Below are positions 4,465 through 25,565 of a DNA stretch of 37,692 bases, piece after piece; position 1 is the stretch's first letter; every line of letters begins with the position of its first letter. The position numbers and the translations under genes are program-made. Under the pieces are notes generated by a model. That model was not told the origin of the DNA. It worked only from the letters and a program-made list of their open reading frames with translations, and did not search any database. The DNA comes from Bacteroidales bacterium (GTDB lineage: Bacteria; Bacteroidota; Bacteroidia; Bacteroidales; UBA932): contig JAFZIO010000013.1 in assembly GCA_017554335.1 (NCBI GenBank), forward strand, positions 1 to 37,692. The letters run 5' to 3'.

Positions 4465-4471
4465 TAGTATT

Positions 4472-6783: not shown

Positions 6784-8318
6784 TGAAGAGGCTCGCCATA
6801 ATTATCATTCCGCTTGTGCTCATGATAGCCTGCTATCAGGATCTGAGCACGGAGGCGTACAGGGAGCTCCCCGATATCGAAATCCTCGGAGTCCCCGATA
6901 CGCTGGAGACCTTCTACGGGGAGGAGATAGTCTTGCACGCAATTGCGACGCTGGACGGGAATGCGTACGGCAACTTCGACTATGAATGGGCCATCGACCT
7001 CAAGCCGGGTAACAACAAAGACAGGATGAGCATCTCGGAGACCGCCGACGTGTCCTACCGAGTGGCCAACCAACCCAACGAGTCCCCCTACTGCCTGTCG
7101 CTGACGGTGTCCGACCCCGAAAGCGGCCTGTCCAGGACGGTCTTTTGCCATGTGTACGTGCGCTCTTCACTCGGCGAGGGGCTCCTGGTCGCCCACACCC
7201 GCGACGGCGGCAAGACGTCGGACTTCGACCTCCTGGCCAACAAATTCGTGACCTACGGCTACACGAGCGACGTTCCCCGCTACACCAGAAACATCTACGA
7301 GCTGGCCAACGGCAAGCCTCTGGAGGGGACGGTCAACGCCGTGCTCCCGGTGGTGCGGTCCGACGGCGCGGTATATAACGAAACGTATATTTTGGCGGGT
7401 ACCGACGAGCATCTGCTTGCCCTTGACCCCCTGACCTTTACGGTCGCCAAGCAGGACGGTGCCCTGTTCAACGGCTTCAAGGAGCCCACCTTCGAGGTGC
7501 ACAACCTCATCAACTACGGCCAGGTAATGACTGCGGCGCAGATAAACGGCAAGCTGTGGCTGAACATCTGCCATACCAACAATATATTCAACGTCGCCGG
7601 CTACAGCGGCATCCCTTCGGATGTCTTCACTCCGACCAACGTGGGCTACTGTTATGCGGTTCAGCAGAGCGACGTCGCATTCTTCCATGAAGAGCAGGGC
7701 AAGTTCTATTACATGCACGCCCAGTTCTCCGGATACAGCAGCTTTGCTCTGGTAACAGACCTTATAGGAGCCAACCTTGCCGGGGGCAAGTCTCTCTGGG
7801 CCGGCGCTGGCAAGGAGGGACGCTGTGCCTTCCTGATAGAGGATGCGGGAGGCAACCACCATATGGTTTATCTGCACCCCAGTGACAAGGAGATGATTCA
7901 TTATGCGCTGGAACCGGCTCAGTGGCTTCCCGGAGCCAAATACTTTGCCCTCTGCGACAATACCGACATGGCCTTCATGGCAACGGACAGCAAGGTCGCT
8001 TCCGTTACCGTTATAGGCGGCAGCCCGGTGTATAGAGAAATCAACTGGAAGCCCGATAACAAGAATGAGGTGATAACCGGAATAAAGTTCTATACCCAGG
8101 GATGGTACGGAACCCACGGCTTCGATTATAACACCTATACTTTCCCGCTAGCAACCAACAGGATGCAGATTATGATCTTCACCTATAACGAGTCTACGGG
8201 AGAAGGCAAGATATACCTCAGGCCGTTCAACGTGAGTACGGGCCTCTTTACATTCAAAGATAATGGCGTTTATGGCGGATTCGGAAGGATAACCGCCGTG
8301 GCATCGACATTCAGATAG
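6780..8318 (+). CDS. PKD-like family lipoprotein
   Basis: The 512-aa protein begins MMKRLAIIIIPLVLMIAC, a lipoprotein signal with Cys18; the second ATG at 6783 is an equally possible start. Residues about 30-125 look like a PKD-type beta sandwich (FYGEEIVLHAIATLDG, FDYEWAIDL, YCLSLTVSDPESGLSRTV). The rest resembles a repeat-strand, propeller-like domain with recurring short hydrophobic strands (LLAGTDEHLLALDP-type, FYYMHAQFSGYSSFAL). Such PKD-like lipoproteins typically follow DUF4843 proteins in SusCD loci that also encode zinc-dependent metalloproteases. It is probably surface-exposed and ligand-binding. It overlaps the previous gene by 4 bp and ends 2 bp before the protease gene. Confidence 0.75.
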   Translation: MMKRLAIIIIPLVLMIACYQDLSTEAYRELPDIEILGVPDTLETFYGEEIVLHAIATLDGNAYGNFDYEWAIDLKPGNNKDRMSISETADVSYRVANQPNESPYCLSLTVSDPESGLSRTVFCHVYVRSSLGEGLLVAHTRDGGKTSDFDLLANKFVTYGYTSDVPRYTRNIYELANGKPLEGTVNAVLPVVRSDGAVYNETYILAGTDEHLLALDPLTFTVAKQDGALFNGFKEPTFEVHNLINYGQVMTAAQINGKLWLNICHTNNIFNVAGYSGIPSDVFTPTNVGYCYAVQQSDVAFFHEEQGKFYYMHAQFSGYSSFALVTDLIGANLAGGKSLWAGAGKEGRCAFLIEDAGGNHHMVYLHPSDKEMIHYALEPAQWLPGAKYFALCDNTDMAFMATDSKVASVTVIGGSPVYREINWKPDNKNEVITGIKFYTQGWYGTHGFDYNTYTFPLATNRMQIMIFTYNESTGEGKIYLRPFNVSTGLFTFKDNGVYGGFGRITAVASTFR

Positions 8319-8320
8319 GC

Positions 8321-10762
8321 ATGAAATCGATTAAAAGAATACTTTTGCTTGCGGCCATCCTCTGCCCGCTCTGTCTCCAGGCAAATGACCGGCCGGCCCT
8401 CAAGACTTCCATCAAGAAGGGAAAGGTTCTCGTGGAGCTTCCGGATTCCCTTCTCGGAAGGACCTGGGCCATGGCTTCCACCGTCCGCGCCATCAGCGAC
8501 AACCGTATGGGCAACGTTGGCCTTAAGGATGTAAACGGCCTCCATTTCTACACCTTCGAGAAAGTAGACAGCACCATCAGGCTCAAGGAAGTATCGTTCG
8601 ATTTCTCATCTTCCGACGGGAATATCCTGAGTGCCCTGTCCGACAGTCACATAGGCGCCACGGTAGAGAAGTTCAAGATCAAATCATCCGATTCCCTGGG
8701 TGTCTGCACCTTCGATGCCACCGACTTCTTCCTCTCGGACAGAAAGGAACTCGACCCTACCGAGTACAACCCGCTTTCCGGCGAGAAAGTCAAGAAAACC
8801 TACAAGAAGGATCTCTCCTACATTGCCGGAACCAAGTGCTTCGAGGACAACTTCTCCGTGGCGGTAAGCCGCACCTACACATACGAAGTCAAGAAAAAGG
8901 AAAAGCCGCTGACCATAGAGTCCGTCACCTCCTTCCTCCTGCTGCCGGAAGAAATCTACCATCCGCGTACTGCAGACCCCCGTATCAACTTCTTCTTCAC
9001 CAGAAGGACGATGGTCGAGGACCTGAACTCCACGAGCAAGGACGTCTGGTTCGTCAACCGCTGGCGCCTGGAGCCCTCCGATACTGCGGCCTACAGGAGA
9101 GGAGAGGCGGTGGAGCCCGTGAAGCCCATCACCTTCTGGATAGACAACAAGTTCCCCGAGTGGTGGAAGCCCTACATTACAGAGGCCGTGCTGCAGTGGA
9201 ACGAAGTGTTCGAGAACATAGGTTTCAAGAATGCCGTGCGGGCGTTGCCCTTCCCGGAAGACAATCCTGAGTTCGACCCGGAAAACATACGCTACAGTTG
9301 CATACGCTACGCTCCGGTGTCGGTGCAGAACGCTATGGGCCCCTCATGGGTCGACCCCCGCAGCGGCGAGATAATCAACGCTTCCGTATGGGTCTATCAC
9401 GATGTCATCAAGCTCCTCAGCCTGTGGATGTTCGTGCAGACCGCCCAGGCCGACCCCGACGTGCGCAGCGTCGACATCCCCAGGGAGATTCTTGGCGACG
9501 CGCTTACGTACGTTCTGCGGCACGAGGTAGGCCACACCCTGGGCTTGATGCACAACATGAGCGCATCCACCTATATCACGATGGATCAGCTGCGCGACCC
9601 GGCGTACAGCCAGGCACACGGCACTACGGAGTCCATCATGGACTACGCCCGCTTCAACTATGTGGCCGCCCCCGGCGATAAGGAGCGTGGCGTCAAGCTC
9701 ACTCCGCCCAAGTTCGGCAGGAATGATTACTGGGCCATCCGCTGGGGCTACACCCCCGTTTTCGACGCCGCCGATTTTGAGGAGGAGACCCGTATCACCG
9801 CCGGCTGGATTACCGATTCGGTGGCCGTGTCGCCGGTTTACCGTTACGGCAAGCAGCAGATGGGCTTCTTCTTCGACCCGCGCTGCCAGACCGAGGACCT
9901 CAGCGACGATGTCTTCGCCGCTTCCGCCGCAGGCGTGCAGAACCTCAAGTATATAATGTCGGAGTTCATGGACTGGATTTCCGACGAGAGCGATCCGGAC
10001 ATGAAATACCGTACGGAGCTTTATCTGGGAATTGTGAACCAGTACCTCCGTTATGCCGGGCATGTTATGCACAACATCGAGGGCCTGTACCGCAACGAGA
10101 CAGTTCCCGGAGATGGCTTCAAGCGCTACGAAAACGTGCCCAGGGATGTTCAGGTGCGTGCTTTGAACGAGGCGTTCGCCATGTATTCCGACGTCGCCTG
10201 GCTGGAAGACAAGGCCGTGCTCGGCAGGCTTCCGATTGTAGGCTCGCCGGTGGATGCTGTCCGCAAGAGCATCGCGGAGACCCTGATGAGCAAGGTCTTC
10301 GCCGCCGGAATGATAGACGGCATCGATACTAACGAGCTGCCGGTCAGGGACGTAATGGACATGCTCTATGACAATGTCTGGAGGCCGACTATAAAGGGCC
10401 GTGCGCTTACTGACGGCGACAGGATTTTCCAGCGTGCCTATGTGGAATCCCTGATGAGCATGGTGGGCTTCAAGAATCCTACGGTCAATGAAAAGTCCGT
10501 TGCTCTTCATGACCACGATCATGACCATGACTGCTGCTGCGATATAGTGAATCCTGCATCCTCAATGGGACGGATTACCTACGACGAGATATCCGGCTTC
10601 GAGTGGGAACCCCGCAATTTCGGCGGCGGCCACGTAGGCCAGTCCATGGCCTATGCTGAGCTGATGAAGGTCCGCAAGCTGATTGACAAGAAGGCCGGCA
10701 AGGGCGAAGACAAGGGGCATTACGCACTCCTCAGAAGTATAATAGATTACGGCGCGAGATAA
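8321..10762 (+). CDS. Zinc-dependent metalloprotease (DUF5117/DUF4953 type), active site intact
   Basis: This 813-aa protein has an export signal (MKSIKRILLLAAILCPLCLQA). Its N-terminal half has the DUF5118/DUF5117 pattern: LVELPDSLLGRTWAMAS, then RTADPRINFFFTRRTMV and NRWRLEPSD. The C-terminal half holds the metzincin site HEVGHTLGLMH at residues 401-411, giving three His ligands and the catalytic Glu402, followed by ESIMDYARFNYVAAPGD, the Met-turn region. It should cleave proteins or peptides in the periplasm or at the surface and feed the SusCD importer. An unusual His/Asp/Cys stretch (HDHDHDHDCCCD, residues 730-741) lies near the C-terminus. The ATG follows the previous stop by 2 bp, and its TAA shares one base with the next ATG (TAATG). 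Confidence 0.92.
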   Translation: MKSIKRILLLAAILCPLCLQANDRPALKTSIKKGKVLVELPDSLLGRTWAMASTVRAISDNRMGNVGLKDVNGLHFYTFEKVDSTIRLKEVSFDFSSSDGNILSALSDSHIGATVEKFKIKSSDSLGVCTFDATDFFLSDRKELDPTEYNPLSGEKVKKTYKKDLSYIAGTKCFEDNFSVAVSRTYTYEVKKKEKPLTIESVTSFLLLPEEIYHPRTADPRINFFFTRRTMVEDLNSTSKDVWFVNRWRLEPSDTAAYRRGEAVEPVKPITFWIDNKFPEWWKPYITEAVLQWNEVFENIGFKNAVRALPFPEDNPEFDPENIRYSCIRYAPVSVQNAMGPSWVDPRSGEIINASVWVYHDVIKLLSLWMFVQTAQADPDVRSVDIPREILGDALTYVLRHEVGHTLGLMHNMSASTYITMDQLRDPAYSQAHGTTESIMDYARFNYVAAPGDKERGVKLTPPKFGRNDYWAIRWGYTPVFDAADFEEETRITAGWITDSVAVSPVYRYGKQQMGFFFDPRCQTEDLSDDVFAASAAGVQNLKYIMSEFMDWISDESDPDMKYRTELYLGIVNQYLRYAGHVMHNIEGLYRNETVPGDGFKRYENVPRDVQVRALNEAFAMYSDVAWLEDKAVLGRLPIVGSPVDAVRKSIAETLMSKVFAAGMIDGIDTNELPVRDVMDMLYDNVWRPTIKGRALTDGDRIFQRAYVESLMSMVGFKNPTVNEKSVALHDHDHDHDCCCDIVNPASSMGRITYDEISGFEWEPRNFGGGHVGQSMAYAELMKVRKLIDKKAGKGEDKGHYALLRSIIDYGAR

Positions 10763-13110
10763 TGAAAAAGGCATTTCTGGTTATTCTTGCGCTGGCGTTT
10801 GCCCTGGCTTCGTATGGCGCAGACACTTATGAGACTTTTGTTTCCAAAAAAGGAATCAAAAGCGCAGGTGAGTGTATGCGTATCTACAAAGACAAGGACA
10901 AGTTCTGGATGGAGTTCCCCGATTCCCTTATGGGCCGCCGGGTGGTGCTGTCTTCCTTTATGAGGCGCTCGTCGGGCTGGACCAGCTGCGGTACGGACAT
11001 CTCCGCCAGGGAGGTTTTCACCTTGTCTAAGACGGATTCCCTGTTGCTGCTGACCTCTCCCGTGGTGGCTGAGGAAGCGTCTACCGCCCCCGTGCGTTAC
11101 GCCTTCCCGATAAAGTACCGCAATGTCGATTCCACGGTCGTAGTGGTTGAGGTTACCAAGCTCTTCAGCCCCTCCAACAAGGACGCCTTCAACCCGGCGA
11201 GGGTTCAGGTGGACGGCAACGCTATGGTGTACAAGGCGACGCCCAAGTCGGAATTCACCCACTTCAAGGAACTCATAGCCTATCCTTCCAGCACCGGCGT
11301 CCTCCAGGGGGTCACCTTCAAAGTCTCTCCGGCCTACGATATCGGCGGAGGGACACTCCAGGTAGTAGAGGAGGAAATAATGTCCGTCGACGGAGACGTG
11401 GCCACCATGCTGACGCTGGTGCCTGAGGCCTCCGTGAAGGTGAGGGTCGCCGACCCGCGTATCGGCACCGTCAACTCTACCAGGAATGTATTCTCGGACG
11501 CAAGGGGGATAAAGAAAGAAGAAATTGTCTCCCGCTGGAACATCTCCGGCGGCAAGAAGATAGTAGTTTACGTGGACACCCTGTTCTCCGCTGCCCAGCG
11601 TGAGGCCGTAAGCCGCGGCATACTCGCCTGGAACAAGCCCTTCGAGGCTGCCGGCCTCGGGAGCGTCATAGAGGTGCGCCCCTACGGACGTGACTTCTGT
11701 GCCGAGAACCCCCTGGCCAGCAAGGTGATGGCGGACGTCCACAGCTCGTCGGGCCGCCTTTCCGTATCCACAATCTCCGATCCGGCCACCGGCCTGATAT
11801 CGGCCTGCAGCATCACGGTGCCTGCCGGGCTCCGCGAATATGTGCGGCTGGACGGCCTGTTCGGTATTTCCGACGTCGATCCTCGTTGGCACGAGTATGA
11901 AATCCCCGAAGATGCTTTCTGCGAGGCCCTGAGCGCTAAAGTCATGCAGGCGTTCGCCCGCGTGCTGGGCCTGAGCGCCAATGCGGCGGGATCGTACGCA
12001 TATTCGCCCGAGCAGCTGCGGGATCCGGAATTCACCAGTCGGCATGGGATTACAGCGTCCGTTACAGACGACGTACTGTTCAACTCTCTCGCCCGTCCGG
12101 GAGACAAGGAGAGGGGAGTGGCGACCATAGTGAATCAGCCCGGAGAGTACGATTATCTCGCAATTGAGTGGATTTATTCACGTCCCGATGCTGCTTCGGA
12201 CAAGGCCCTGGCCGACTCTCTGATAAGCTCCAAGGCCGGCAACCCTGCATACTTGTACCTCCCGGTTGCTACCGTGTCTCCGGATCCCAGGTGTTACAGG
12301 GGCGATCTGGGCAATGACCCGTTCGAGGAATATACAAATGCCGTCAGGAGACTGCATTACATTGCTGAAAACGTACCCGGGTGGTACGAGAGCACAGTGC
12401 CGCACAACACCGGCTTCAGGTCTATTCTGGTCGAGCAGATCCTGACCCATCATTGCAGCGAGCATAGGAAACTCGGCAGAGTAGTCGGGGGCTTGTTTGT
12501 TCAGGACATCTCTTCCGGCACCAAATACATAGCCGTCGGCAAGGATGAGCAGAAAAAGGCGCTCACCATGTCCATTAACGGGCTGAACAAAACAGAATAC
12601 ATGGATTCCAACAAGGAGCTCCAGGCGTTCAGCGGAGCCTACAATGACTTTGCAACGATTATGCGCGTCAATGCTGTCAACCAGAACTCTATAAATTCGA
12701 GGCTCAAGTGGAGTGCGGCCGCCACCAAATTGGGCATTACGGATTATCCGGTTGCGGAACTGCTGTCCGACATTACGGATGAGGTTACCAGTAACCTGCG
12801 CAAAGGTTCCTTGCCGGAAGGAGAGGAGTTCCTTGTCGGTGTGTGGATGACGCTTGGTTTGATGCCGAGTCTCCCCGTGTATGCGCAGAACCAGAAGGAA
12901 TACAATCATAAGGCCCTTTATGCCCCCATGCCCATGTCGGAAGCGCTTTACAAGCCCGTGCTGGAAAACGCCTGCATTGCCGAGATGGAAAGGCTCGAAG
13001 GTGTCCTGAAAAAGAGCCTGCGGGCGGCCCGGAGCGATTATGATAAAGACAGGATCCGTTACCTGCTGTCGCAGATGGACGGTATGAAAGGAACAAAAAC
13101 ACAACCATAA
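10762..13110 (+). CDS. Metalloprotease paralogue without a zinc site (probable pseudoprotease)
   Basis: The 782-aa protein has a signal peptide (MKKAFLVILALAFALASYGA) and aligns by eye with the protease just upstream along most of its length. Shared blocks include the ...WMEFPDSLMGR start, VADPRIGTV, SRWNISGGKKIVVYVD, and the catalytic-region block EQLRDPEFTSRHGITASV...RPGDKERGV. At the metzincin site the neighbour reads HEVGHTLGLMH, but here residues 396-406 read QAFARVLGLSA: the three His become Gln, Arg and Ala, and the catalytic Glu becomes Ala. The frame is intact and its length close to the partner, so it is not a decaying gene. A role as a binding partner or regulator of the active enzyme, or as a peptide-binding subunit, is inference. 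Confidence 0.88.
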   Translation: MKKAFLVILALAFALASYGADTYETFVSKKGIKSAGECMRIYKDKDKFWMEFPDSLMGRRVVLSSFMRRSSGWTSCGTDISAREVFTLSKTDSLLLLTSPVVAEEASTAPVRYAFPIKYRNVDSTVVVVEVTKLFSPSNKDAFNPARVQVDGNAMVYKATPKSEFTHFKELIAYPSSTGVLQGVTFKVSPAYDIGGGTLQVVEEEIMSVDGDVATMLTLVPEASVKVRVADPRIGTVNSTRNVFSDARGIKKEEIVSRWNISGGKKIVVYVDTLFSAAQREAVSRGILAWNKPFEAAGLGSVIEVRPYGRDFCAENPLASKVMADVHSSSGRLSVSTISDPATGLISACSITVPAGLREYVRLDGLFGISDVDPRWHEYEIPEDAFCEALSAKVMQAFARVLGLSANAAGSYAYSPEQLRDPEFTSRHGITASVTDDVLFNSLARPGDKERGVATIVNQPGEYDYLAIEWIYSRPDAASDKALADSLISSKAGNPAYLYLPVATVSPDPRCYRGDLGNDPFEEYTNAVRRLHYIAENVPGWYESTVPHNTGFRSILVEQILTHHCSEHRKLGRVVGGLFVQDISSGTKYIAVGKDEQKKALTMSINGLNKTEYMDSNKELQAFSGAYNDFATIMRVNAVNQNSINSRLKWSAAATKLGITDYPVAELLSDITDEVTSNLRKGSLPEGEEFLVGVWMTLGLMPSLPVYAQNQKEYNHKALYAPMPMSEALYKPVLENACIAEMERLEGVLKKSLRAARSDYDKDRIRYLLSQMDGMKGTKTQP

Positions 13111-15437: not shown

Positions 15438-15692
15438 GCGGCTGTTCGTGATTAGCCACTGCTGCGCAGTGCCTTTTCACGATGCCCCTGCCGGGGGCCG
15501 CTTGCGACAAGGAGGTCGCGGAATCACGGCTGACGTGGGAAGAAACGGAGGAGCGTAGCGACGACAGAAGGGGGACGGCGCTAGCCGTGTGGGGGAAACC
15601 TTTCCCCCATCCCCTGGGGGTGCAGGGGGATAATAGCGTTATGCTGCGCCAGCAGCAGAATCGCGAACAGCCGCCTCATGGGCGGCTGTTCG
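15438..15692. repeat. Cluster of palindromes next to tRNA-Arg
   Basis: This noncoding stretch holds at least six short hairpins in a row: CACTG/CAGTG (15457-15471), GCCCC/GGGGC (15484-15498), GCGAC/GTCGC (15504-15519), ACGGC/GCCGT (15575-15588), GGGGGAAA/TTTCCCCC (15591-15608), and a 12-bp stem at 15664-15692. CGTGATT at 15447 and AATCACG at 15522 could enclose the first three. A 16-bp sequence, GCGGCTGTTCGTGATT, appears at 15438-15453 and again at 15682-15697, where it runs into the tRNA 3' end. An open frame crosses the region (15482-15844) but resembles nothing and runs over the tRNA. The stretch from 15364 to 15437 holds nothing recognisable except a doubled TTTTGCCGCGCCGT. Confidence 0.6.
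15664..15692 (-). terminator. Hairpin directly after tRNA-Arg
   Basis: CGAACAGCCGCC pairs perfectly with GGCGGCTGTTCG over 12 bp with a five-base loop. It begins one base past the tRNA discriminator base on the minus strand. There is no T tract on that strand, so it may act as a processing or 3'-end stability element rather than a classic terminator. Confidence 0.5.
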
Positions 15693-15766
15693 TGATTCCG
15701 ACGCGATTCGAACGCGTGACCCACAGCTTAGAAGGCTGTTGCTCTATCCAGCTGAGCTACGGAACC
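15693..15766 (-). tRNA. tRNA-Arg(UCU)
   Basis: Read on the minus strand, the acceptor GGTTCCG pairs with CGGAATC (one G-T pair). The D arm contains AGCTCAGCTGGATAGAGC, and the T arm contains GTTCGAATC. The anticodon stem ACAGC/GCTGT encloses CTTCTAA, giving anticodon TCT, which reads AGA (Arg). The discriminator is A and the CCA end is not encoded. A TATCTTTG box lies 11 nt upstream, so it probably has its own promoter downstream of the flippase gene. Confidence 0.95.
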
Positions 15767-15793: not shown

Positions 15794-16771
15794 TCAGGAT
15801 TTCCTATGGCGCAGGGTGAAAGCGAAATAGGAAATCACGCCTAACACGATAATAAGCACGGCGTGGGATTCGTGGCAGAGGGTGGCATACAAAATCCCGG
15901 TATCCCAAGTTGCTGCGTATATGTTCTGTAACGTGAGCGCCACCAAATAGTGGTATGCCCCTATTCCTCCCGGCACGGGAATCACGGACGCTATATTGCC
16001 CACCGCAGAGATGAACAGTGCGTCAGCGAACGTAAGCGAATCCAGCATTGGCAGCGCCTTGAGGCCCGTCCAGCTCATGCAGACGTACATGGCCCAGATG
16101 CCCACCGTATACAGCACGAACAGCCACTTGCGTTCCATCTTGGCAATGCTGGCAAAGCCGGCACCTAACCCGGAAATCCACCCGGCAAGCTTTCCGCACC
16201 ATGCGTAGCGGGCCCTCCAGTGGAAGATGGCCCAAAAGCCTCCGCCGACCACCAGCACCACTCCGGCCAGCAGCCACCAGGCGGAGAAGCTGAGCCTGCC
16301 TGCGAGCGGCTGCCATATCTGCTCCACGAAGAAACTGCCGAATTTGCTCCACCCGAAACCAAGGGCCGCGGCGAACAGCAACACTATGGCCACCACGTCG
16401 CAAGTGCGCTCGCAAACTATGGTTCCGAGAGCCTTGTCGTAACTCATTCGCTTGCCGCGCGACACGTAGCCGCAGCGCACGAACTCCCCGGCTCCGGGCA
16501 GCACGACGTTGACTATATTGCCCACGTTGATGGAGTCCCAAACGTCCAGCCGCCCCGCCGTGGGATCCATCGGCAGGATAATCGCCCGCCAGCGCTCCTC
16601 ACGCAGCACCAGCGCCAAAACGGAAAACACTATGAACAGGGCCACCCAGCCCCAGCGGGTCTGCTGCAGGCCGCCCCAGAATGCCTTCCAGTCTACGCCC
16701 CTGAAGGCGAAGTACACCAGCACGCCGGCCAGAAGGAAGGAAATGACGTATTTGGGAATATTCTTGTTCAT
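15794..16771 (-). CDS. Flippase-like membrane protein (lysylphosphatidylglycerol synthase TM family)
   Basis: The start is at 16771 (MNKNIPKYVISFLLAGVLVYFAF), just after the upstream stop. A longer frame begins with a TTG inside the previous gene and is less likely. The 325-aa protein is made of about eight hydrophobic segments and has family marks: RWRAI after the second helix, NIVNVVLPGAGEFVRCGYVSR, the VCERTCDV motif, and GNIASVIPVPGGIGAYHYL near the C-terminus. This family (PF03706) covers the membrane half of MprF and many stand-alone proteins thought to move lipids or lipid-linked molecules. It is the last gene of the lipoprotein, radical SAM and patatin operon; its cargo is unknown. 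Confidence 0.85.
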   Translation of the reverse strand: MNKNIPKYVISFLLAGVLVYFAFRGVDWKAFWGGLQQTRWGWVALFIVFSVLALVLREERWRAIILPMDPTAGRLDVWDSINVGNIVNVVLPGAGEFVRCGYVSRGKRMSYDKALGTIVCERTCDVVAIVLLFAAALGFGWSKFGSFFVEQIWQPLAGRLSFSAWWLLAGVVLVVGGGFWAIFHWRARYAWCGKLAGWISGLGAGFASIAKMERKWLFVLYTVGIWAMYVCMSWTGLKALPMLDSLTFADALFISAVGNIASVIPVPGGIGAYHYLVALTLQNIYAATWDTGILYATLCHESHAVLIIVLGVISYFAFTLRHRKS

Positions 16772-16775
16772 GGTA

Positions 16776-19196
16776 TCAGAAGTCAAAACCTATTGAGGCG
16801 GAAAGGGTCACACCCTTGGCATTGCACCACTGGAGGCCGATTTTAAAGGGGCCCACGATAGTCTGGCGGGCGTATTCAGTACCGACTGCGTAAACGAAGA
16901 AAGGATCGAACAGAAGTTTGTCTCCTAAACCTCCGATGTCGCAGTAGACGCCTGCCCGCAGCGTAATATAGTTCTTGCTCGCCACGCAGTAGCGCAAGTC
17001 AAGCTGGCCCGTCGCAACCAGGTCCCGGCATACGGTGTATCCGGTAGGATAGCCGAAGAACGGAATCTGATGCTCCGTGTAACGCCCCGGCATTATACCG
17101 CCCAAAGCCACCACGTGCCGTGGATTCATGTACCTCGTATCCACAGAATTCCAGCCACCGTAAACAGTCGGCTGTATGGTGAAGTTCCGGAAGGGAGTAA
17201 AAGCGGCCGAGAAACTGCCGACAAGCGACATGTAAGGCGTTACTGACCCGGACGGGACTTCGTGATTGAACGCCAGGTTGTAACTGTATCCATTGAAGAC
17301 ATAACGCGCATCCAGCACGAAGCCCATGCCTTTGGTTGGGAAATAAGCGTCGTTGAAAGTATCTAAGCGCAGGTTCCCGAATACGGACGCCCAGTAGCTC
17401 TTCATGTCCCAGAAGTTCGAGTACGATTCGAAGGTCAGGGCCTGCTGGAAGGGCATCATTTCGTACGAGACTCCGGTGCGGAAGCTTCCGTAGGTCATTC
17501 TGGAGTCTTCTATATACAGATCGAGTCCTGAGGAGTAGAAGCGGCTGTACATCGGCTCCCCGGAGTTGAGCATGCTGCTGTTCGTCATATGGTTGCGGAA
17601 GCGCACTCCAATCGTGGGTATGCCTATCATGGCGCGGTATGCCGCGTCGAGGTTCAGCGTGGGGTTGGTGCCCAGTTTCAGGTCCGTGGTAAAGCGGAAT
17701 CCGGAAAGCCGGCGTGTGCCTACGCCCATGCGTACGGAGGCGTAAACGGCCTCGTCAGTATCGGCGTGAATGCCGGCGGAGAGCTCGTTTACCTGCCCCT
17801 TCTGGCAGTCGAACACCAGTGTGTATGGCTCCCGGGCGCCTTCCAGGCGGTAGGTTACAGACTCGAATGCATTGGTGCCGTAGATGAAATTCATCAGGGT
17901 CTCGATATCTTTTTTGCCATACATGCCATCCTGCCTGTACATGCGCGGATGGATTATGTGCTCCTGCTCCCGGGGAGTTACCCCTTCGAAGCGTATGTCG
18001 CTCACACGCACCTTGGTGGTCGCTATGTTGACTGCCGTTCTGCGCGGATTGACGCTAAGCGGTGCAGCATCTTTGAAGCGTGCCGCAATGGCCTCGAACT
18101 CATCTTTATGGCTGAGGGCGTCCTGGTAGCCCTCTTCAAGAATGCCATCGACGCTCGCATCGTCGAACGACATCATGTTATAACTGCTCAGGCCGTGATG
18201 GACGTTCAGGTCCGGCATGTGCAGTGTACGGTCCAGCGTTGCGGCCCCCAGCAGGTTGATGGTCTGGAGTACCAGGTCAACGGGGGAGTTGAGCTCGTCC
18301 AGGCCCTGGCGGGTGTGCATCTCGGAGCCGATTATAATGTCAGCCCCCATCTCGCGGGCAATGTCCACGGGGTAGTTGTTCCGCATGCCGCCGTCCAGAA
18401 GGACCGCTCCGTCTGTACGTACAGCCCTGAAATAGAAGGGGATGGAAATCGTCGACCGGATGGCGTCGGAGATGTTTCCGGCAGTCCAGTATTTGGGCTT
18501 GAGCGTGTACATGTTGGTTGCCACGCTGGTGTACGGGCGGGGCAGGTCTGCAAAGCCCAGGCTGTCCTGGTATCCGACGCTTACGCTGCTTATCATGTTG
18601 CGTATGTTGAATCCGAAAAGCAGACCGTCGGGCATGCCTATTCCCATACGGGACATCGCTACCTGAAGCACGTCGCTGCTGGAGGTGCCGGACTGCTCTG
18701 CAAGCAGGTCTATCTGGTCCGACATCTCCTTGATCTTTTTGTCGCGCAGGTCCTCGTTATCGTAGTGGAAGGGGATATTCACGGCAAAGCGGTCGCGGGT
18801 TTTGCGCAGCCGGTAAGACAGGTAGTCGTTGGGAATCTTGTCCGACATCATCATCGGCCAGTCCACGTTGCGTACAATGGAATCAAGTTCCGCATGAGTG
18901 TAGCCCAGGGAATAGAGGCCGGAAATAAGGCCGCCCATGCTGGTGCCCACTACGGCATCTACAGGTATCCCGAGCTCTTCCATATAGCGGATGACGCCAA
19001 GATGTGCCAGGCCGCGTGCTCCACCTCCGGACAGCACCAGAACTACGGTAGGGCGTTGCCGGTGTATGGAATCGAGCCGTGCGCGGATCTGCGCAAAGGC
19101 TACGGAGTCGGCTTCGGGGCTGGCGCTGGGCAGAATCTGGGCCTGCGCCGTAGCCATGAGGCTCAGTGCAAGCAGAGCCGTCATCAATCGCTTCAT
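16776..19196 (-). CDS. Patatin-like phospholipase with C-terminal outer-membrane barrel
   Basis: I choose the ATG at 19196 (MKRLMTALLALSLMATAQAQ), which overlaps the radical SAM stop by 4 bp and gives a good signal peptide; an upstream in-frame start lies inside the neighbour. The 806-aa protein has the patatin catalytic set: oxyanion GGGARG at 57-62, nucleophile Ser86 in GTSMGG, and Asp268 in LDGG. After about residue 380 comes a POTRA-like section (VRVSDIRFEGV) and then a beta barrel of the Omp85/BamA type, ending in Phe (SASIGFDF). This is the layout of the PlpD group of type V secretion-like lipases. In Bacteroidetes such proteins are common and poorly characterised. Here it is coupled to a radical SAM enzyme, which is unusual. 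Confidence 0.9.
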   Translation of the reverse strand: MKRLMTALLALSLMATAQAQILPSASPEADSVAFAQIRARLDSIHRQRPTVVLVLSGGGARGLAHLGVIRYMEELGIPVDAVVGTSMGGLISGLYSLGYTHAELDSIVRNVDWPMMMSDKIPNDYLSYRLRKTRDRFAVNIPFHYDNEDLRDKKIKEMSDQIDLLAEQSGTSSSDVLQVAMSRMGIGMPDGLLFGFNIRNMISSVSVGYQDSLGFADLPRPYTSVATNMYTLKPKYWTAGNISDAIRSTISIPFYFRAVRTDGAVLLDGGMRNNYPVDIAREMGADIIIGSEMHTRQGLDELNSPVDLVLQTINLLGAATLDRTLHMPDLNVHHGLSSYNMMSFDDASVDGILEEGYQDALSHKDEFEAIAARFKDAAPLSVNPRRTAVNIATTKVRVSDIRFEGVTPREQEHIIHPRMYRQDGMYGKKDIETLMNFIYGTNAFESVTYRLEGAREPYTLVFDCQKGQVNELSAGIHADTDEAVYASVRMGVGTRRLSGFRFTTDLKLGTNPTLNLDAAYRAMIGIPTIGVRFRNHMTNSSMLNSGEPMYSRFYSSGLDLYIEDSRMTYGSFRTGVSYEMMPFQQALTFESYSNFWDMKSYWASVFGNLRLDTFNDAYFPTKGMGFVLDARYVFNGYSYNLAFNHEVPSGSVTPYMSLVGSFSAAFTPFRNFTIQPTVYGGWNSVDTRYMNPRHVVALGGIMPGRYTEHQIPFFGYPTGYTVCRDLVATGQLDLRYCVASKNYITLRAGVYCDIGGLGDKLLFDPFFVYAVGTEYARQTIVGPFKIGLQWCNAKGVTLSASIGFDF

Positions 19197-20263
19197 ATGC
19201 CCAGCCGCTCCAGATTGCACATTATCAGCTTGCCGTCGTCGTCACGCAGGTGCATGCCGTTGCCCTGGCACCACTTCCAGTATTTGCACTCCAGGCACTT
19301 GCCCTCGCGCAGGGGGGAGTGGTCGCGGAAGACGCCGAAGCGATTGTTCCAAACGTCCACGAAATCGTCCTTGTAGATGTTCCCCTGGTCGAACCGGGCG
19401 CGTATGCTGGTGCAGCCGGAGATGGCACCGTCTATGCGTACCGAGCCGACTGTGATGCCCGCCTGACAGCTGAAGAGGTGGTCGCGTACCTTGCCCTCAT
19501 AGGGCCCCAGGAAGCCTTCGCAGCCGTAGCTGGCGTGGATGCGGCACTCCTTGCGGGAGGCGTGTATGAAGTCCAGCAGCTGACGGTATTGCTCGTTGCT
19601 AAGCTGAAGTTCGGGGTCGGAGGCCGCACGCCCTACCGGGAAGACGGTAAACAGGCGCCAGCGGCGTACGCCGAGCGAAATCAGATACTCCTTGATCTCC
19701 GCCAGCTTGGGGAAGTTGCGCTGGTTTACGCAGGTCACCACGTCGAAGCCTATGCCCTTTTGCGAAGCCAGGCGCTTGATGGCCGCCGAAGCGTAAGAGA
19801 ACGAATCCGGCATGCCGCGCATCCAGTTGTGGTCTTCTTCCAGGCCGTCCAGGCTGATGGTGGCGGTACGCAGGCCGGCGCGAAGCAGCTTGTCCACCAT
19901 CTCGTTGCTCATCAGACGTCCGTTGGACACCATGCCCCAGGGGAATCCCAGGTCGCGTATGCGTGCGGCACATTCGGGAAGGTCTTCCCTCATAAGGGGC
20001 TCGCCTCCGGAAATAATGATGAGAATCTGTGACGGGTCCCACTCCTCTTTTATGCGGAGCAGCACTTTCTCGAAGTCGGCAAAGGGCATGTCCGGCTGCA
20101 GGGAAGAAACCTTGCAGTCGCTGCCGCAGTGCCGGCATTTCATGTTGCAGCGCAGGGTGCACTCCCAAAACAGTTGCATCAGGGGGTGGCTTTTGGCCTC
20201 CTCCTTAATGAAACTGCGGTTGACATCCAGCGCCAGGCGCTGGGCAAGAGTGAGGGACGGCAT
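19193..20263 (-). CDS. Radical SAM/SPASM enzyme of an rSAM/lipoprotein system
   Basis: The 356-aa protein has the radical SAM cluster motif C39-x3-C43-x2-C46 (CNMKCRHC), a GGEPLMR motif, and a C-terminal SPASM-like Cys set (C323, C326, C332, C349, with upstream Cys in SGCTS and FSCQAG) for extra Fe-S clusters. SPASM enzymes usually modify peptides. The gene begins 3 bp after the stop of a 66-aa lipoprotein gene. This pairing matches the Bacteroidetes rSAM/lipoprotein system described in TIGRFAM (TIGR04133 with TIGR04134), recalled from knowledge and not searched. The lipoprotein is the obvious candidate substrate. The stop overlaps the patatin start (ATGA), so all four genes of the operon are tightly linked. 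The modification itself is unknown. Confidence 0.88.
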   Translation of the reverse strand: MPSLTLAQRLALDVNRSFIKEEAKSHPLMQLFWECTLRCNMKCRHCGSDCKVSSLQPDMPFADFEKVLLRIKEEWDPSQILIIISGGEPLMREDLPECAARIRDLGFPWGMVSNGRLMSNEMVDKLLRAGLRTATISLDGLEEDHNWMRGMPDSFSYASAAIKRLASQKGIGFDVVTCVNQRNFPKLAEIKEYLISLGVRRWRLFTVFPVGRAASDPELQLSNEQYRQLLDFIHASRKECRIHASYGCEGFLGPYEGKVRDHLFSCQAGITVGSVRIDGAISGCTSIRARFDQGNIYKDDFVDVWNNRFGVFRDHSPLREGKCLECKYWKWCQGNGMHLRDDDGKLIMCNLERLGI

Positions 20264-20266
20264 TGC

Positions 20267-20467
20267 TTAGAGCAACTCTTCTGCGTCCACGGTTTCTCCT
20301 TCAGCCTCTGCTGCACCGTCGTTTGCCTTGGTAGTGGTCTCCTCAACTTCAGGAGCGGGGACGCCGTACTCAGGCTCGGGATAATCGATGGGTGCGGGAC
20401 CATAGCAGGCCGTAAAGACATTGAGGCCGAGAATGGCGAGCATCAGTTTGAAAAAACGTTTCTTCAT
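20267..20467 (-). CDS. Short lipoprotein, probable radical SAM partner
   Basis: The 66-aa protein has a lipoprotein signal (MKKRFFKLMLAILGLNVFTAC, Cys21). The mature part has only about 45 residues: directly after the Cys come YGPAP (22-26) and YGVPAP (34-39), joined by a Pro/Glu-rich linker, then an acidic tail. The Tyr-Gly-x-Pro motif right after the lipid Cys is what I recall for the radical SAM-associated lipoproteins of TIGR04134, though those I recall are longer and carry a beta domain. The tiny size, the repeat and the position 3 bp before the SPASM gene make it a likely modification substrate. A TATATTTG box sits 4 nt before the ATG, so the mRNA may be leaderless. Confidence 0.8.
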   Translation of the reverse strand: MKKRFFKLMLAILGLNVFTACYGPAPIDYPEPEYGVPAPEVEETTTKANDGAAEAEGETVDAEELL

Positions 20468-20471
20468 ATCG

Positions 20472-20479
20472 CAAATATA
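20472..20479 (-). promoter_or_regulatory. Promoter -7 box of the lipoprotein-rSAM operon
   Basis: The minus-strand box TATATTTG is followed by CGAT and then the ATG at 20467. Bacteroidetes start sites fall a few bases after this box, so transcription should begin at or next to the ATG. The box lies in the 30-bp gap after the cysS stop, so the operon is probably transcribed separately from cysS. Confidence 0.6.
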
Positions 20480-20497: not shown

Positions 20498-22027
20498 CTA
20501 CTCCAGAGTCCACTCAACTCCGTCCTTGGTATCCTTTACCTGGATGCCGAGGGCCTTCAGGGAGTCGCGGATGTGGTCCGACGTGGCCCAGTCCTTGGCG
20601 GCCTTGGCGGCGGCGCGCTGCTCCAGCACCATGCCCATCAGGCCGTCGATTATCTTGCCTGCGCCGTCACTTCCGGCAGCAGCTTCGTCCTTGAGCCCCA
20701 GTACGCCGAAGACTATGTCGCCGAAGAGCTGGCAGAGGGTCTGCAGGTCGCCGGCCCCCAGCTTCACGCTTCCGGCCTTGGCGGAGTTGATAAGGCGCAC
20801 GGCCTCAGAGATATGGGCCAGCGCCATAGGGGTGTTCATATCGTCGCAGAGGGCGTCGTAGATGCCGTCGAAAACGGCACGCACCTCGGCGGATTCGGCA
20901 GGGCAGCTGTCGGGCGCCACGCCGAAGGTCTCTTCTCCGTAGGCATATACGGGCGCCTTGCGGCCGGCCATGGCGTAGAGGTCCTTGGCCGCCTGCATCA
21001 CGCGGGAGAGACCCTTCTCGGCAGCCAGGAGGGCGTCGTTGGAGAAGTCCAGCGTGCCGCGGTAGTGGGCCTGAAGGATGAAGAAGCGCACGGTCATGGG
21101 GCTGTAGGCGCGTTCCAGCTTGGGGTGGTCGCCGCTGAAGAGCTGAGGCAGGGTGATGAAGTTGCCGAGGCTCTTGCCCATCTTCTGGCCGTTGATGGTG
21201 ATCATGTTGTTGTGCACCCAGTAATGCACGCCCTGCGTGTGCCTGCAGGCCACGTTCTGGGCGATTTCGCACTCGTGGTGCGGGAACATCAGGTCCATTC
21301 CGCCGCCGTGGATGTCGAACTCGTTGCCGAGGTACTTCTCTCCCATGACGGAGCACTCCAGGTGCCAGCCGGGGAAGCCTTCGCCCCAGGGGGACGGCCA
21401 GCGCATTATGTGCTCCGGCTCCGCCTTCTTCCAGAGGGCGAAGTCGTACGGGGCGCGTTTGTCGCTCTGCCCGTCGAGGCTTCGGGTGCCCTCCAGCGTG
21501 TCGTCAAGATTGCGGCCGCTGAGCACGCCGTAGTGGTGGTCCTGGTTGTACTTCTGGACGTCGAAGTAGATGCTGCCGTTGCTCTCGTAGGCGTAGCCGG
21601 CGGCGAGTATCTTCTTGACCGCCTCGATCTGCTCCACTATGTGGCCGCTGGCACGCGGTTCGATGGAGGGCGGCGCCACGTTGAGCTGCCGCATCGCCTC
21701 GTGGTAGCGGAGGGTGTATGCCTGCACCACCTCCATGGGCTCAAGCTGCTCCAGGCGTGCCTTCTTGGCGATTTTGTCCTCCCCCTCGTCGGCATCGTGC
21801 TCCAGATGGCCTACGTCGGTGATGTTGCGCACGTAGCGCACCTTGTAGCCGAGGTGCCTTAGCAGCTTGCTGAGCACGTCGTACGTTACGCCGGGGCGCG
21901 CATGCCCGAGGTGGGCATCGCCGTATACGGTAGGGCCGCAGACATACATGCCGACGTGCCCTTCATGGACCGGTTTAAAAAGTTCCTTGCTCCTGGTGAG
22001 CGTATTTGTGAGATATAGAGCTTTCAT
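20498..22027 (-). CDS. cysS: Cysteine--tRNA ligase
   Basis: The start is at 22027 ([17 protein letters not shown]); a longer frame to 22078 would add residues not found in the family. The 509-aa class I synthetase has the zinc Cys30 in YVCGPTVYG, the HIGH-type motif HLGH at 39-42, WHLECSVMG and [13 protein letters not shown] zinc and substrate motifs, and KMGKS at 282-286 for the KMSKS loop. It charges tRNA-Cys. A TATCTTTG box ends 8 nt before the ATG and faces a divergent box for the gene on the right. Confidence 0.97.
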
Positions 22028-22035
22028 ATAGACTA

Positions 22036-22062
22036 CAAAGATAGAAAAAAGAGTTATATTTG
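22036..22062. promoter_or_regulatory. Compact divergent promoter pair, cysS and Big2 lipoprotein
   Basis: On the minus strand TATCTTTG (22043 down to 22036) serves cysS; on the plus strand TATATTTG (22055-22062) serves the lipoprotein gene. Only 11 bp separate the two boxes, so both polymerases could hardly bind at once. The cysS start would be nearly leaderless; the plus transcript would begin near 22068. Confidence 0.55.
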
Positions 22063-22067
22063 TGAAT

Positions 22068-22127
22068 ATGAAATTCATTCAGTTGGAATTTTGGGCGGTT
22101 TGCCCGGTGGAACTTGTCCTGCGATGA
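22068..22127 (+). CDS. Possible 19-aa leader peptide
   Basis: The ATG lies 5 nt after the TATATTTG box, so it would be the first codon of the plus-strand transcript. The frame encodes [19 protein letters not shown] and ends in TGA that overlaps the ATG of the lipoprotein gene (ATGA at 22124). That arrangement would allow coupled translation. It could also be chance in a short leader; there is no comparative evidence. Confidence 0.3.
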
Positions 22128-23494
22128 AACGTGTCTTGAGCATACTGGCAGCGTTGTGCTTCCTGGCCTCCTGCGGGCCAGAAATAGATCCCATAAGGCC
22201 AAAGGATAATCCAGAAATTCCCACTCCGGAACCGGAGCCGGAGCCCGAACCAGAGCCTGAGCCGGAAAAGGAACCGGTACTGCAGTTTACCTCTATCTGG
22301 GAAGACCTTTTCAAAGGTGAAAGCACTTCCGCCGCTTGTGCTGTTACGGACGGAGAGCCCGGAAAAGACTACAAGGTCCTGTACACCTCTTCCGATGTTT
22401 CAGTAGCCACCGTATCTGATGAGGGCAAGGTAACGGCGCTCAAAGCCGGCACGGCCCGTATTACTGCAAAAATAGTCGGGACCGAAGCCATGGCGTACCG
22501 CGACTACCATGTGATGGACCTTTCACAGCTCAAGCAGGCGTACAGCAGCGACCTGGTGATGGTGAAAGGCCATACGATCTACTACAAGGCCGTAATGCAG
22601 TCCTGGGACTTTTTCGACGACTATTTCTACGTATGCCAGGTCTGCGGATCGCCGCACACGCTGACTTACACCCGCAAACCCGTTTACGAACAGAACCCGC
22701 AGGACTACATGCACCTTAAATATTACGGCCACGGCGACAACATGTTCGTGGAACGGGCAAGCGACGGCGATTATCTGTGGACCTCCAACTACGGCACCCT
22801 GGAGTCCGGAGAGACCAACCGCTATTCCGAGTCCCAGGTGATCTCCAGGATAAAGTTCTCTCCGAACAAGACGGTGTTGCCCGAAGACAGCAGCTTCAAC
22901 TGCGTGATACCGGGTATGAAGCGCCTCATAGCGGCCTACGACGCAGACAACGGCAACGTGGGCATCTGGTGCCGCGACGCAAGCGGCGTAGCCTGGTTCT
23001 ACGTGTATCCGATGGAGGACATCAAGGCGTTGCAGGCGGAGAGCATACAACTCAGCTTCAGCCGTACCTACGGTAACCCAAAGGTAACCGACAGGCCTAC
23101 GGTTTACGCCCGAAACCTGTCAAAGCTTACGCCCCTTTTCAAGTTCCAGATGCCCTTGAAAAACGTACCTCAGGGCTACGACTACCACCACAACAAGATT
23201 TACTTCATGCGCGGCGACGGCGCTGAACTGGAAGAGCGCGAGGCCGGCACGAACAAGAACTGGGCGCGTGTGTACTACATTAGTCCCCAGACCGCGAAAA
23301 CGCTTGTTCAGGTGGATCTGCCGTGGGTGGACAACGTTTCCCTGTTGAAATCGGAGAACATTACGGACCTCGGCTATTTTGAGCCCGAAGGCATCAAGCT
23401 CAAGGACGGATATATATACATTGGCTTTGCCAGCAAAGACGCCGGCAGCTCCCCGGAGCGCAGGGTAAACATCTTCAAGTACAAACAGCAGTAA
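22124..23494 (+). CDS. Lipoprotein with Big2 Ig-like domain and propeller-like C-terminus
   Basis: I start at 22124 ([17 protein letters not shown], Cys17), which gives a clear lipoprotein signal; an upstream TTG frame does not. After the Cys comes a Glu-Pro repeat linker (about 35-52), typical of a spacer that lifts a domain off the surface. A Big2-type domain follows (about 60-125: YTSSDVSVATVSDEGKVTAL, GTARITAK). The remaining 330 residues are rich in aromatic short strands (YMHLKYYGHGDNMFVE, YLWTSNYGT, EPEGIKLKDGYIYIGFAS) and resemble bacteriocin-type helveticin J or teichoic-acid-related propellers. I cannot assign a function. It is a single-gene transcription unit. Confidence 0.75.
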   Translation: MKRVLSILAALCFLASCGPEIDPIRPKDNPEIPTPEPEPEPEPEPEPEKEPVLQFTSIWEDLFKGESTSAACAVTDGEPGKDYKVLYTSSDVSVATVSDEGKVTALKAGTARITAKIVGTEAMAYRDYHVMDLSQLKQAYSSDLVMVKGHTIYYKAVMQSWDFFDDYFYVCQVCGSPHTLTYTRKPVYEQNPQDYMHLKYYGHGDNMFVERASDGDYLWTSNYGTLESGETNRYSESQVISRIKFSPNKTVLPEDSSFNCVIPGMKRLIAAYDADNGNVGIWCRDASGVAWFYVYPMEDIKALQAESIQLSFSRTYGNPKVTDRPTVYARNLSKLTPLFKFQMPLKNVPQGYDYHHNKIYFMRGDGAELEEREAGTNKNWARVYYISPQTAKTLVQVDLPWVDNVSLLKSENITDLGYFEPEGIKLKDGYIYIGFASKDAGSSPERRVNIFKYKQQ

Positions 23495-24420: not shown

Positions 24421-24975
24421 ATGGGAAGAGACAAGGTATCACTCTGGCAGATTTTCGCCGTGTTCGCCAAGATAGGGGCGTTCACGATAGGCGGAGGCTA
24501 TGCCATGATACCAATAATCCAGCGGGAGATGTCCCGGCGCGGCTGGATCTCCGACGACGAGCTGCCGGACATCGTGGCCCTGAGCCAGAGCGCCCCCGGA
24601 GTGATGGCGGTGAACATATCCATCTTCGCCGGATACCGCCTGCGCGGCATTCCAGGCAGCATTGCGGCCACGCTCGGCAGCATCACGCCGTCGTTCCTGA
24701 TTATCCTGGCAATCGCCATGTTTTTCTCCGCCTTCCGCGACAACCCCTGGGTGGAACGGGCGTTCAAGGGCATCAGGCCCGTGGTGATTTCTCTCATCCT
24801 CGTTCCCATGGTCAACATGGCCCGCAAGGCATGCACCTCATGGTGGAAGTGGGCTCTGGCAGTGGCGTCGCTGGTGCTGGTCGCTTTCCTTAATGTGTCG
24901 CCTATCTACATCCTGCTGGTGGTCATCATAATGGGCTTCAGCGTAACTTATTACAGCGGACGATGGAAGCGGTGA
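24421..24975 (+). CDS. Chromate transporter family protein, first half
   Basis: The 184-aa protein is one half-size unit of the CHR family (PF02417). It opens with the family motif FAVFAKIGAFTIGGGYAMIPIIQREM, followed by DDELPDIVALSQSAPGVMAVNISIFAGYRLRG and about five membrane helices. Full-length ChrA is about 400 aa; here the two halves are separate genes overlapping by 13 bp, the usual short-chain pair that works as a heterodimer. Chromate export is known for some members; the real substrate in gut Bacteroidales is not established. Confidence 0.88.
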   Translation: MGRDKVSLWQIFAVFAKIGAFTIGGGYAMIPIIQREMSRRGWISDDELPDIVALSQSAPGVMAVNISIFAGYRLRGIPGSIAATLGSITPSFLIILAIAMFFSAFRDNPWVERAFKGIRPVVISLILVPMVNMARKACTSWWKWALAVASLVLVAFLNVSPIYILLVVIIMGFSVTYYSGRWKR

Positions 24976-25565
24976 GTCTCATATTGCAGCTGGCCTGGAC
25001 CTTCTTCCTCGTGGGGGCGTTCACCTTCGGAGGCGGCTACGCCATGCTGTCCCTCATTCAGAACCAGGTGGTTGTGGCGCACCAGTGGATAAGCGAGAGC
25101 GCGTTTACGGACATCGTGGCAATCTCGCAGATGACTCCCGGCCCCATAGGCATCAACGCCGCCACGTACACCGGCTACAGCGTACTCTATGAAGCTACCG
25201 GCCTGCACTGGATGGGCGTCTGCGGCTCCGCCGTGGCCACACTGGCGCTGGTGCTGCCGTCGTTCCTAATTGTCCTGCTTATCGTAAAATTCTATACCAG
25301 GTTCCGCAAGAGCACCCTTTTCGAAGGTACCATGGGCTGGCTGCGTCCGACGGTAGTGGGCCTCATCGGCGCGGCGGCGGTAATACTCGTCGTCCGCACC
25401 ACCTGGAACGGCTACGTGCCGGAATTTTCCCTCGTGCGCGAGAACATAATCGACTGGCGGAGCTGGTTGCTGATGGGAGCCGCCTTCGTGGCGTCTTACT
25501 GGAAGAAAATCAATCCCATACTGATAATCCTCGGGGCCGCAGTGCTGGGGGTGCTGCTATATTAG
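24963..25565 (+). CDS. Chromate transporter family protein, second half
   Basis: The 200-aa partner repeats the family motif near its start (FFLVGAFTFGGGYAMLSLIQNQV), with FTDIVAISQMTPGPIGINAATYTGY and several hydrophobic helices. It starts 13 bp before the first half ends. Each gene keeps its own complete N-terminal motif, so this is a real two-gene transporter and not a frameshifted single gene. Confidence 0.88.
   Translation: MEAVSLILQLAWTFFLVGAFTFGGGYAMLSLIQNQVVVAHQWISESAFTDIVAISQMTPGPIGINAATYTGYSVLYEATGLHWMGVCGSAVATLALVLPSFLIVLLIVKFYTRFRKSTLFEGTMGWLRPTVVGLIGAAAVILVVRTTWNGYVPEFSLVRENIIDWRSWLLMGAAFVASYWKKINPILIILGAAVLGVLLY

Follow-up and report, generated by a model that had tools for sequence, protein, structure and literature searches.

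A lipoprotein and a radical S-adenosylmethionine enzyme as a conserved gene pair in Bacteroidales, with a short Y-G-x-P core as candidate site of modification

This analysis concerns four genes that lie together on the minus strand of a Bacteroidales genome of the UBA932 lineage (GenBank assembly GCA_017554335.1). They occupy 15794..20479 of contig JAFZIO010000013.1, of which positions 1 to 37,692 were analysed (this whole stretch is referred to as the window), and encode in turn a 66-residue lipoprotein (P0004), a radical S-adenosylmethionine (rSAM) enzyme with a SPASM domain (P0003), a patatin-Omp85 protein (P0002) and a flippase-like membrane protein (P0001). An earlier reading of the letters, hereafter the original prediction, described them as one operon of coupled genes, and both the genes and their spacings were recovered here: the lipoprotein and rSAM genes are separated by 3 bp, the rSAM and patatin genes overlap by 4 bp (ATGA), and a gap of 4 bp follows before the flippase-like gene. 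The lipoprotein gene (20267..20467) encodes the signal peptide MKKRFFKLMLAILGLNVFTA, followed by C-YGPAPIDY and an acidic tail, and by sequence pattern alone (signal peptide plus lipobox Cys) its product is predicted to be a bacterial lipoprotein. The lipobox reads F-T-A-C, with Phe at -3, and the codon of Cys21, the predicted mature N-terminus, lies at 20405..20407. Directly behind it is a first Y-G core, YGPAPIDY (Tyr22-Tyr29; 20381..20404), whose motif recurs across the partner classes described below and which is the proposed modification site. A second core, YGVPAPEV (Tyr34-Val41; 20345..20368), was seen in the window species and in its sister species G027. G027 has a 92%-identical counterpart of P0004 and relatives show conservation at the codon level, so the 66-residue open reading frame is a real gene.

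The family assignments of the pair were then examined with profile searches. The rSAM enzyme (19193..20263; 356 residues) matched TIGR04133 over residues 7-354 with 528.7 bits (cut-off 425), and its expected SPASM nature was borne out by the CX3CX2C motif and by a Pfam SPASM score of 23.1 bits, over the cut-off of 21.5. The lipoprotein, which had been expected to belong to TIGR04134 (cut-off 39.8 bits), gave no match to this model at E values up to 1, and none in NCBIfam or Pfam. Five of nine other partner sequences passed the TIGR04134 model, the four failing ones being two short and two C-terminal forms; thus, the model works and P0004 lies outside the family. In the window genome, which is 87.6% complete, we identified one TIGR04133 member over the cut-off and one copy of P0004, with no TIGR04134 member over the cut-off and no further match to P0004, so that P0004 is the sole candidate partner seen.

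To better characterize the pair, we collected 155 distinct rSAMs (identical ones merged) from searches of the genus, the family and a wider set of genomes. These were best-scoring sequences (the best 80 of 588 in one search and the best 30 loci of each of three longer lists). Records under the name Candidatus Cryptobacteroides and records of Bacteroidales from rumen or gut were among the best 80 of 588. The predicted pairing proved to be general: a lipoprotein-like open reading frame adjoined the rSAM gene in 149 of the 155 loci. In 141 of the 155, the mature part of the adjacent lipoprotein contained Y[GAS] with a Pro at position +3 or +4, and 148 could be assigned to a partner class, with partners picked by regular expressions that differed between rounds and with most counts relying on the motif pattern. 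A second TIGR04133 subfamily (L325-L344), 45-50% identical to P0003, was accompanied by lipoproteins beginning Cys-Tyr-Gly (CYG) in 19 of 20 stretches; a partner was found in 10 of them at first, and in 9 more once both strands of the whole stretch were scanned. Phe stood at -3 in 18 of these 19 lipoproteins, as judged by reading. Many genomes carry this second enzyme together with its own CYG lipoprotein, which is not directly beside the rSAM gene in about half of the cases. On the basis of gene order and sequence across these loci, the conserved unit is the lipoprotein plus the rSAM enzyme.

The partners differ greatly in build and share the core. The core was observed in four settings: it follows the lipobox Cys directly, precedes a TTR-like domain, lies close to the C-terminus or is repeated in tandem as MYGPP. 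Long partners (∼150 residues, mostly with a TTR-like domain) made up the largest class with 115 proteins, followed by short partners (33 proteins, including that of the window), in which Cys-Tyr-Gly lies directly at the lipobox and an acidic tail follows, and by 18 proteins with the core near the C-terminus. A middle class comprised seven proteins, four of them with tandem MYGP copies; the member at L028 is probably not a gene. The partner lipoproteins with tandem MYGP near the rSAM gene at L223, L226, L230 and L207 resemble multi-core precursors of ribosomally synthesized and post-translationally modified peptides (RiPPs). At L006, L008 and L268, the partner cores read LLYAVPNVPY, and a secreted protein of ∼230 residues, laminin-G-type lectin-like by eye, ends just before the rSAM gene.

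In a first pass, YG.P was present in 105 of 146 adjacent lipoproteins and in 0 of 50 distant ones from the same loci, the controls being shorter than 320 residues. Of 77 longer control lipoproteins, 16 contained YG.P and 56 contained YG, so neither is rare in long proteins. Among 194 cores, for which the selection pattern was Y[GAS] plus Pro at +3 or +4, Gly occupied +1 in 94%, Pro +3 in 81% and an aromatic residue +7 in 82%. We also aligned 68 long partners that had been chosen for their TTR-like domain, independently of the core: Tyr was found in 64 of 66 and was never replaced by Phe, Gly was present in 65 of 66 and Pro in 63 of 66, and position +7 was occupied by Phe (38), Tyr (29) or Leu (1). 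The fact that Phe was never seen in the position of the core Tyr suggests that the ring oxygen matters. Two narrower proposals were weakened by these data. First, an obligatory aromatic residue at +7 agrees well with most long and C-terminal partners and poorly with the CYG forms. Second, a three-residue cyclophane spanning Y-G-x sits badly with Gly at +2, which was present in 2 of the 194 cores and also in L342 and L343.

The partner in the window is reduced to Cys-Tyr-Gly-Pro and an acidic tail. In a quick rSAM tree, from which L210 (internal stop) had been left out, short partners occurred in the window clade and separately in L216, L222, L249, L250 and L265, whose sequences read ...FMACYGPAPRNY and similar. 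If all loci having a short partner are counted, the short-form label must change three times across the tree, and placing all 33 short-form rSAMs in one clade was rejected by the approximately unbiased test (p-AU 2e-38), with the same quick tree and with a group named after the tree had been seen. Two origins of the short form are the simplest reading; tree counts cannot separate gains from losses, and an older short form may instead have been lost. On the window side, all 28 sequences shared G-7, F-3, T-2, C0, Y+1 and G+2, each of these residues showing synonymous codon variation (the set had itself been selected using C0, Y+1 and G+2), and positions from +6 onward varied. Phe at -3 of the lipobox was found in 113 of 169 partners versus 8 of 77 control lipoproteins, in which Leu was commonest (48%); it should be noted, as a point against this comparison, that the controls were picked by somewhat different lipobox rules. 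By class, Phe -3 was present in 33 of 33 short, 61 of 112 long and 14 of 18 C-terminal partners. Conservation of the signal-peptide end beyond what a lipobox needs suggests that the rSAM enzyme or a partner reads it.

With regard to the enzyme, the CX3CX2C motif corresponds to C39, C43 and C46, which were invariant in 30 aligned members, as were C248, C266, C284, C323, C326, C332 and C349. The full SPASM pattern has seven cysteines, and variants of it are known. Six of the seven are present in P0003, where Gly336 stands in place of the final Cys of CX2CX5CX3C; C248 is a further invariant Cys. In a structure model of P0003 (predicted local distance difference test score, pLDDT, 90.6), the nearest folds were the peptide maturases SkfB and SuiB, followed by BlsE and PqqE. 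The modelled likeness to the SPASM peptide maturases SkfB, SuiB and PqqE amounts to template modelling (TM) scores of 0.66, 0.70 and 0.58, respectively, by query length; in contrast, sequence identity is 16-20%.

Based on these observations, we consider it on balance probable that the pair is a functional unit in which the rSAM enzyme modifies the Y-G-x-P core of the lipoprotein before export and lipidation. We infer that the lipoprotein is the substrate, that Tyr is the site and that modification precedes export. In the cytoplasm, the enzyme would recognize the core of the precursor, with the conserved end of the signal peptide, including Phe -3, perhaps assisting, and would modify it, most likely on Tyr, the candidate reactions being a cross-link, dehydrogenation or decarboxylation. 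The precursor would then be exported by Sec, lipidated on Cys, cleaved by signal peptidase II and anchored in the envelope. The window product would be a minimal one, with a lipidated Cys, a modified Tyr adjoining the anchor, Gly-Pro and the acidic tail. Surface-export signals on Bacteroidetes lipoproteins are acidic, according to the available portion of PMC5080379, and positions +2 to +6 of P0004 (CYGPAPIDY) hold no acidic export signal; the mature protein therefore probably faces the periplasm, although this is a guess.

Several observations weigh against such a role. No partner was recognized in 7 of the 155 rSAM loci, and the aromatic residue at +7 is weak in the CYG forms. The partners share ancestry, so the counts are not independent events, and most of these counts used the motif to pick partners, in loci that were the best-scoring of longer lists rather than a random sample. 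In its model, P0003 appears to lack the N-terminal extension that holds the RiPP recognition element (RRE) in many maturases, including an RRE-like extension as in the three SPASM maturases named above. The best sequence match in the PDB was the small-molecule decarboxylase BlsE, with SkfB next, and the next-best profiles of P0003 were those of heme b synthase AhbD (140.6 bits) and NirJ2 (134.7 bits), which outscored the peptide maturase profiles of nif11-class 3 (108.3) and mycofactocin (100.2). Given AhbD and NirJ2 as next-best profiles, peptide chemistry is not settled by homology. Finally, the core could be conserved for sorting or for contact with a partner rather than for modification.

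A broader claim, which we put forward tentatively and hold to be possible rather than probable, is that TIGR04133 enzymes make a class of rSAM-modified lipidated RiPPs that is widespread in Bacteroidales, in which the signal peptide would serve as leader, a Tyr-centred change would occur at a portable Y-G-x-P found in lipoproteins of greatly differing build, and the window would hold a minimal lipid-anchored modified peptide. P0004 and P0003 have the gene features of a lipidated RiPP system, that is, a short precursor, a conserved core and a maturase-like neighbour. A precedent has been demonstrated: DybA, the product of an MNIO (multinuclear non-heme iron-dependent oxidative) enzyme, is modified by DybH and lipidated via the lipoprotein pathway, and DybH recognizes a short motif with freedom elsewhere, according to the available text of PMC12636315. 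As far as that text describes the DAG-RiPPs, the window pair resembles DybA/DybH in its small precursor with a lipoprotein signal peptide, its cytosolic enzyme and a short motif in varied settings (inferred in our case). It differs in that the enzyme is an rSAM/SPASM protein and not an MNIO, and in its motif, which is Y-G-x-P close to the N-terminus or in other positions, as opposed to their C-terminal CPACGMG. The words 'rsam' and 'radical' have 0 occurrences in the main text of PMC12636315.

Two rival explanations of the pair were weighed. According to the first, the rSAM enzyme produces or alters a small molecule (a tetrapyrrole-like compound, for instance), and the lipoprotein does no more than bind or sense the product at the envelope, with Y-G-x-P as a binding motif. 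The AhbD, NirJ2 and BlsE matches given above are in its favour. However, the builds of the partners vary, whereas the four-residue core and the signal-peptide end remain constant even in forms of ∼60-80 residues that contain hardly anything more, as would be expected of a peptide substrate rather than of a binding protein; cores in tandem are also found. We regard this explanation as unlikely. We give as little credence to the second, in which Y-G-x-P and F-3 form a sorting or processing signal and the target of the enzyme is a different residue or not the lipoprotein at all. In short forms, the core does lie directly after the lipidated Cys, where sorting signals sit, and F-3 is inside the lipobox. 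On the other hand, the core is also found far from the Cys, up to near the C-terminus, which the +2 sorting rule would not allow, and the core was absent from all 50 distant lipoproteins below 320 residues, though YG.P was present in 16 of the 77 longer controls. Moreover, the known Bacteroidetes export signals are acidic, in the part of PMC5080379 mentioned above.

The patatin-Omp85 gene (16776..19196) encodes an 806-residue outer-membrane lipase-like protein in which the predicted lipase was confirmed at the level of domains, with Pfam Patatin at 102.6 bits (residues 53-280) and Omp85_2 at 55 bits (561-806), both over the cut-off; the lipase role itself is predicted. In its patatin and Omp85-type barrel domains it is like the PlpD-like proteins (a class assigned by domains and not PlpD itself), and it has no conserved tie to the rSAM pair. 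The 325-residue membrane protein encoded at 15794..16771, a syntenic neighbour, had been called flippase-like: LPG_synthase_TM (PF03706) supported this with 123.8 bits, whereas the score against TIGR00374 was 32 bits, below the cut-off of 43.2.

The original prediction tied these two genes to the pair and held that the link would be accidental if relatives kept the pair without them. Gene order was compared between the window genome and 15 genomes with an rSAM at least 71% identical, among 400 genus genomes searched, and in a context set of 98 rSAM loci (at least 2 kb available upstream in 82 and downstream in 83, more than 5 kb on both sides in 55). The outcome was the one that undoes the link. 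In G027, whose rSAM is 96% identical and whose genome is 78% complete, the order is cysS-lipoprotein-rSAM-flippase with no patatin in between. In G406 (L319, 2912-7945), the pair is absent and the order is cysS-patatin-flippase-tRNA-Arg, with an ATGA overlap between cysS and patatin; the sole match to P0003 at 1e-60 or better in that genome is a distant one located elsewhere. The patatin adjoined the rSAM gene in 2 of the 98 loci, namely the window and G011, where the rSAM gene overlaps the patatin gene by ATGA and the flippase is divergent and upstream. A window-type patatin (E 1e-170 or better) was present in 72 of the 400 genus genomes, own genome included, and an rSAM lay within its ∼1.5 kb flanks in 2 of 30 patatin loci examined. 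All 30 genus genomes that were searched carried the flippase-like gene, whether or not they also had an rSAM. Of 14 genomes that lack a TIGR04133 member above the cut-off, 8 had the flippase-like gene no more than ∼5 kb from cysS and 6 had tRNA-Arg in the stretch, some of these stretches ending at contig ends. A flippase homologue occurred within ∼6 kb of the rSAM in 16 of the 98 loci. Here the distribution does speak for a tie, with 15 of 29 loci in the short-form clade versus 1 of 69 elsewhere, and the rSAM-flippase ATGA overlap recurs in G027, L095, L099 and L102; the short-form clade may have a clade-specific tie or merely share a genome place.

Judged by this comparison, the stretch from cysS to tRNA-Arg could be read as a slot in which the flippase, the patatin and the lipoprotein-rSAM pair come and go, where tight spacing would reflect compaction rather than a shared task. 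Patatin and flippase look like chance neighbours of the pair. A functional operon of four genes was rejected on the context in the 98 rSAM loci, the 30 patatin loci and the 14 genomes without an rSAM above the cut-off. The related idea of an envelope module, in which patatin and flippase would take part in lipid turnover or export together with the modified lipoprotein, can draw on the tight spacing with ATGA overlaps in the window, G011 and the four loci just named and on the enrichment of the flippase in the short-form clade, and appears very unlikely in view of the 2 of 98 patatin-rSAM neighbours, the arrangements in G027 and G406, and the flippase near cysS in 8 of the 14 genomes (several of those stretches ending at contig ends).

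Both borders of this slot had gone unmentioned in the original prediction. The cysS gene (20498..22078), named by eye from its sequence, is the start of the conserved neighbourhood; it is co-directional and ends 30 bp upstream of the lipoprotein gene. A tRNA-Arg (tct; 15692..15766, minus strand) follows the flippase-like gene at the downstream end, and tRNA-Arg also stands behind the flippase, the patatin or the rSAM in several relatives. Ahead of the lipoprotein gene, the promoter-like box TATATTTG (20472..20479, minus strand) matches TAnnTTTG, which we take to be the consensus of the Bacteroidetes -7 promoter box. The function of the box is unsure: TAnnTTTG occurs 20 times in the window on both strands, and the box, although kept in G027, is not at that place in L095, L099 and L102. 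In L096, a TAnnTTTG-type box lies ∼28 bp before the lipoprotein ATG. As TATATTTG ends only 4 bp ahead of the ATG, a transcript starting there would be nearly leaderless. A scan of the stretch for promoters and terminators listed no sigma-70-like site before the lipoprotein gene. Where cysS ends, a weak hairpin resembling a terminator (20522..20504; 7 pairs, 3 of them G-C) favours a separate transcript for the pair, and terminator-like sites were only somewhat more frequent in the stretch than in shuffled sequences (10 versus 5.4, standard deviation 2.7). An own transcript for the lipoprotein-rSAM pair is possible on this sequence evidence.

Some other features of the window were recorded by eye. 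At 1384-13110, a SusC/SusD-like pair is followed by lipoproteins and by two tandem large related proteins, the first with HEVGH as in zinc metalloproteases and the second seemingly without it. Two overlapping genes at 24421-25565 resemble the halves of a split ChrA-type chromate transporter; they are divergent from an exonuclease III-like gene, the listed start of which overlaps theirs. Beside cysS, 22091-23494 encodes a predicted lipoprotein with the Pro-Glu repeat PEPEPEPEP behind its lipobox.

The TIGR04133/TIGR04134 system is known already by name, its function being unexplained. The founding paper of the field is reportedly that of Haft and Basu from 2011. A search of open-licence papers returned nothing on the TIGR04133 or TIGR04134 accessions or on this pair, and the available parts of PMC9062424, PMC8939145 and PMC10352776 contain nothing on an rSAM/lipoprotein pair. 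Like the NCBIfam system, the window has an rSAM over the TIGR04133 cut-off and an adjacent lipoprotein gene in a member of the Bacteroidales; unlike TIGR04134, its lipoprotein has 66 residues, no TTR-like domain and the core directly behind the lipobox Cys. As far as the open-licence literature shows, the short partner outside TIGR04134, the core shared across partner classes, the F-3 signature and the evidence for the lipid genes as mere neighbours are new.

If the proposed modification is true, the short form would be a substrate cut down to a four-residue core beside a lipid anchor, and the role of the enzyme would become testable with one small peptide and one enzyme. Lipidated RiPPs would then extend from MNIO to radical SAM enzymes, in common bacteria of the gut and rumen.

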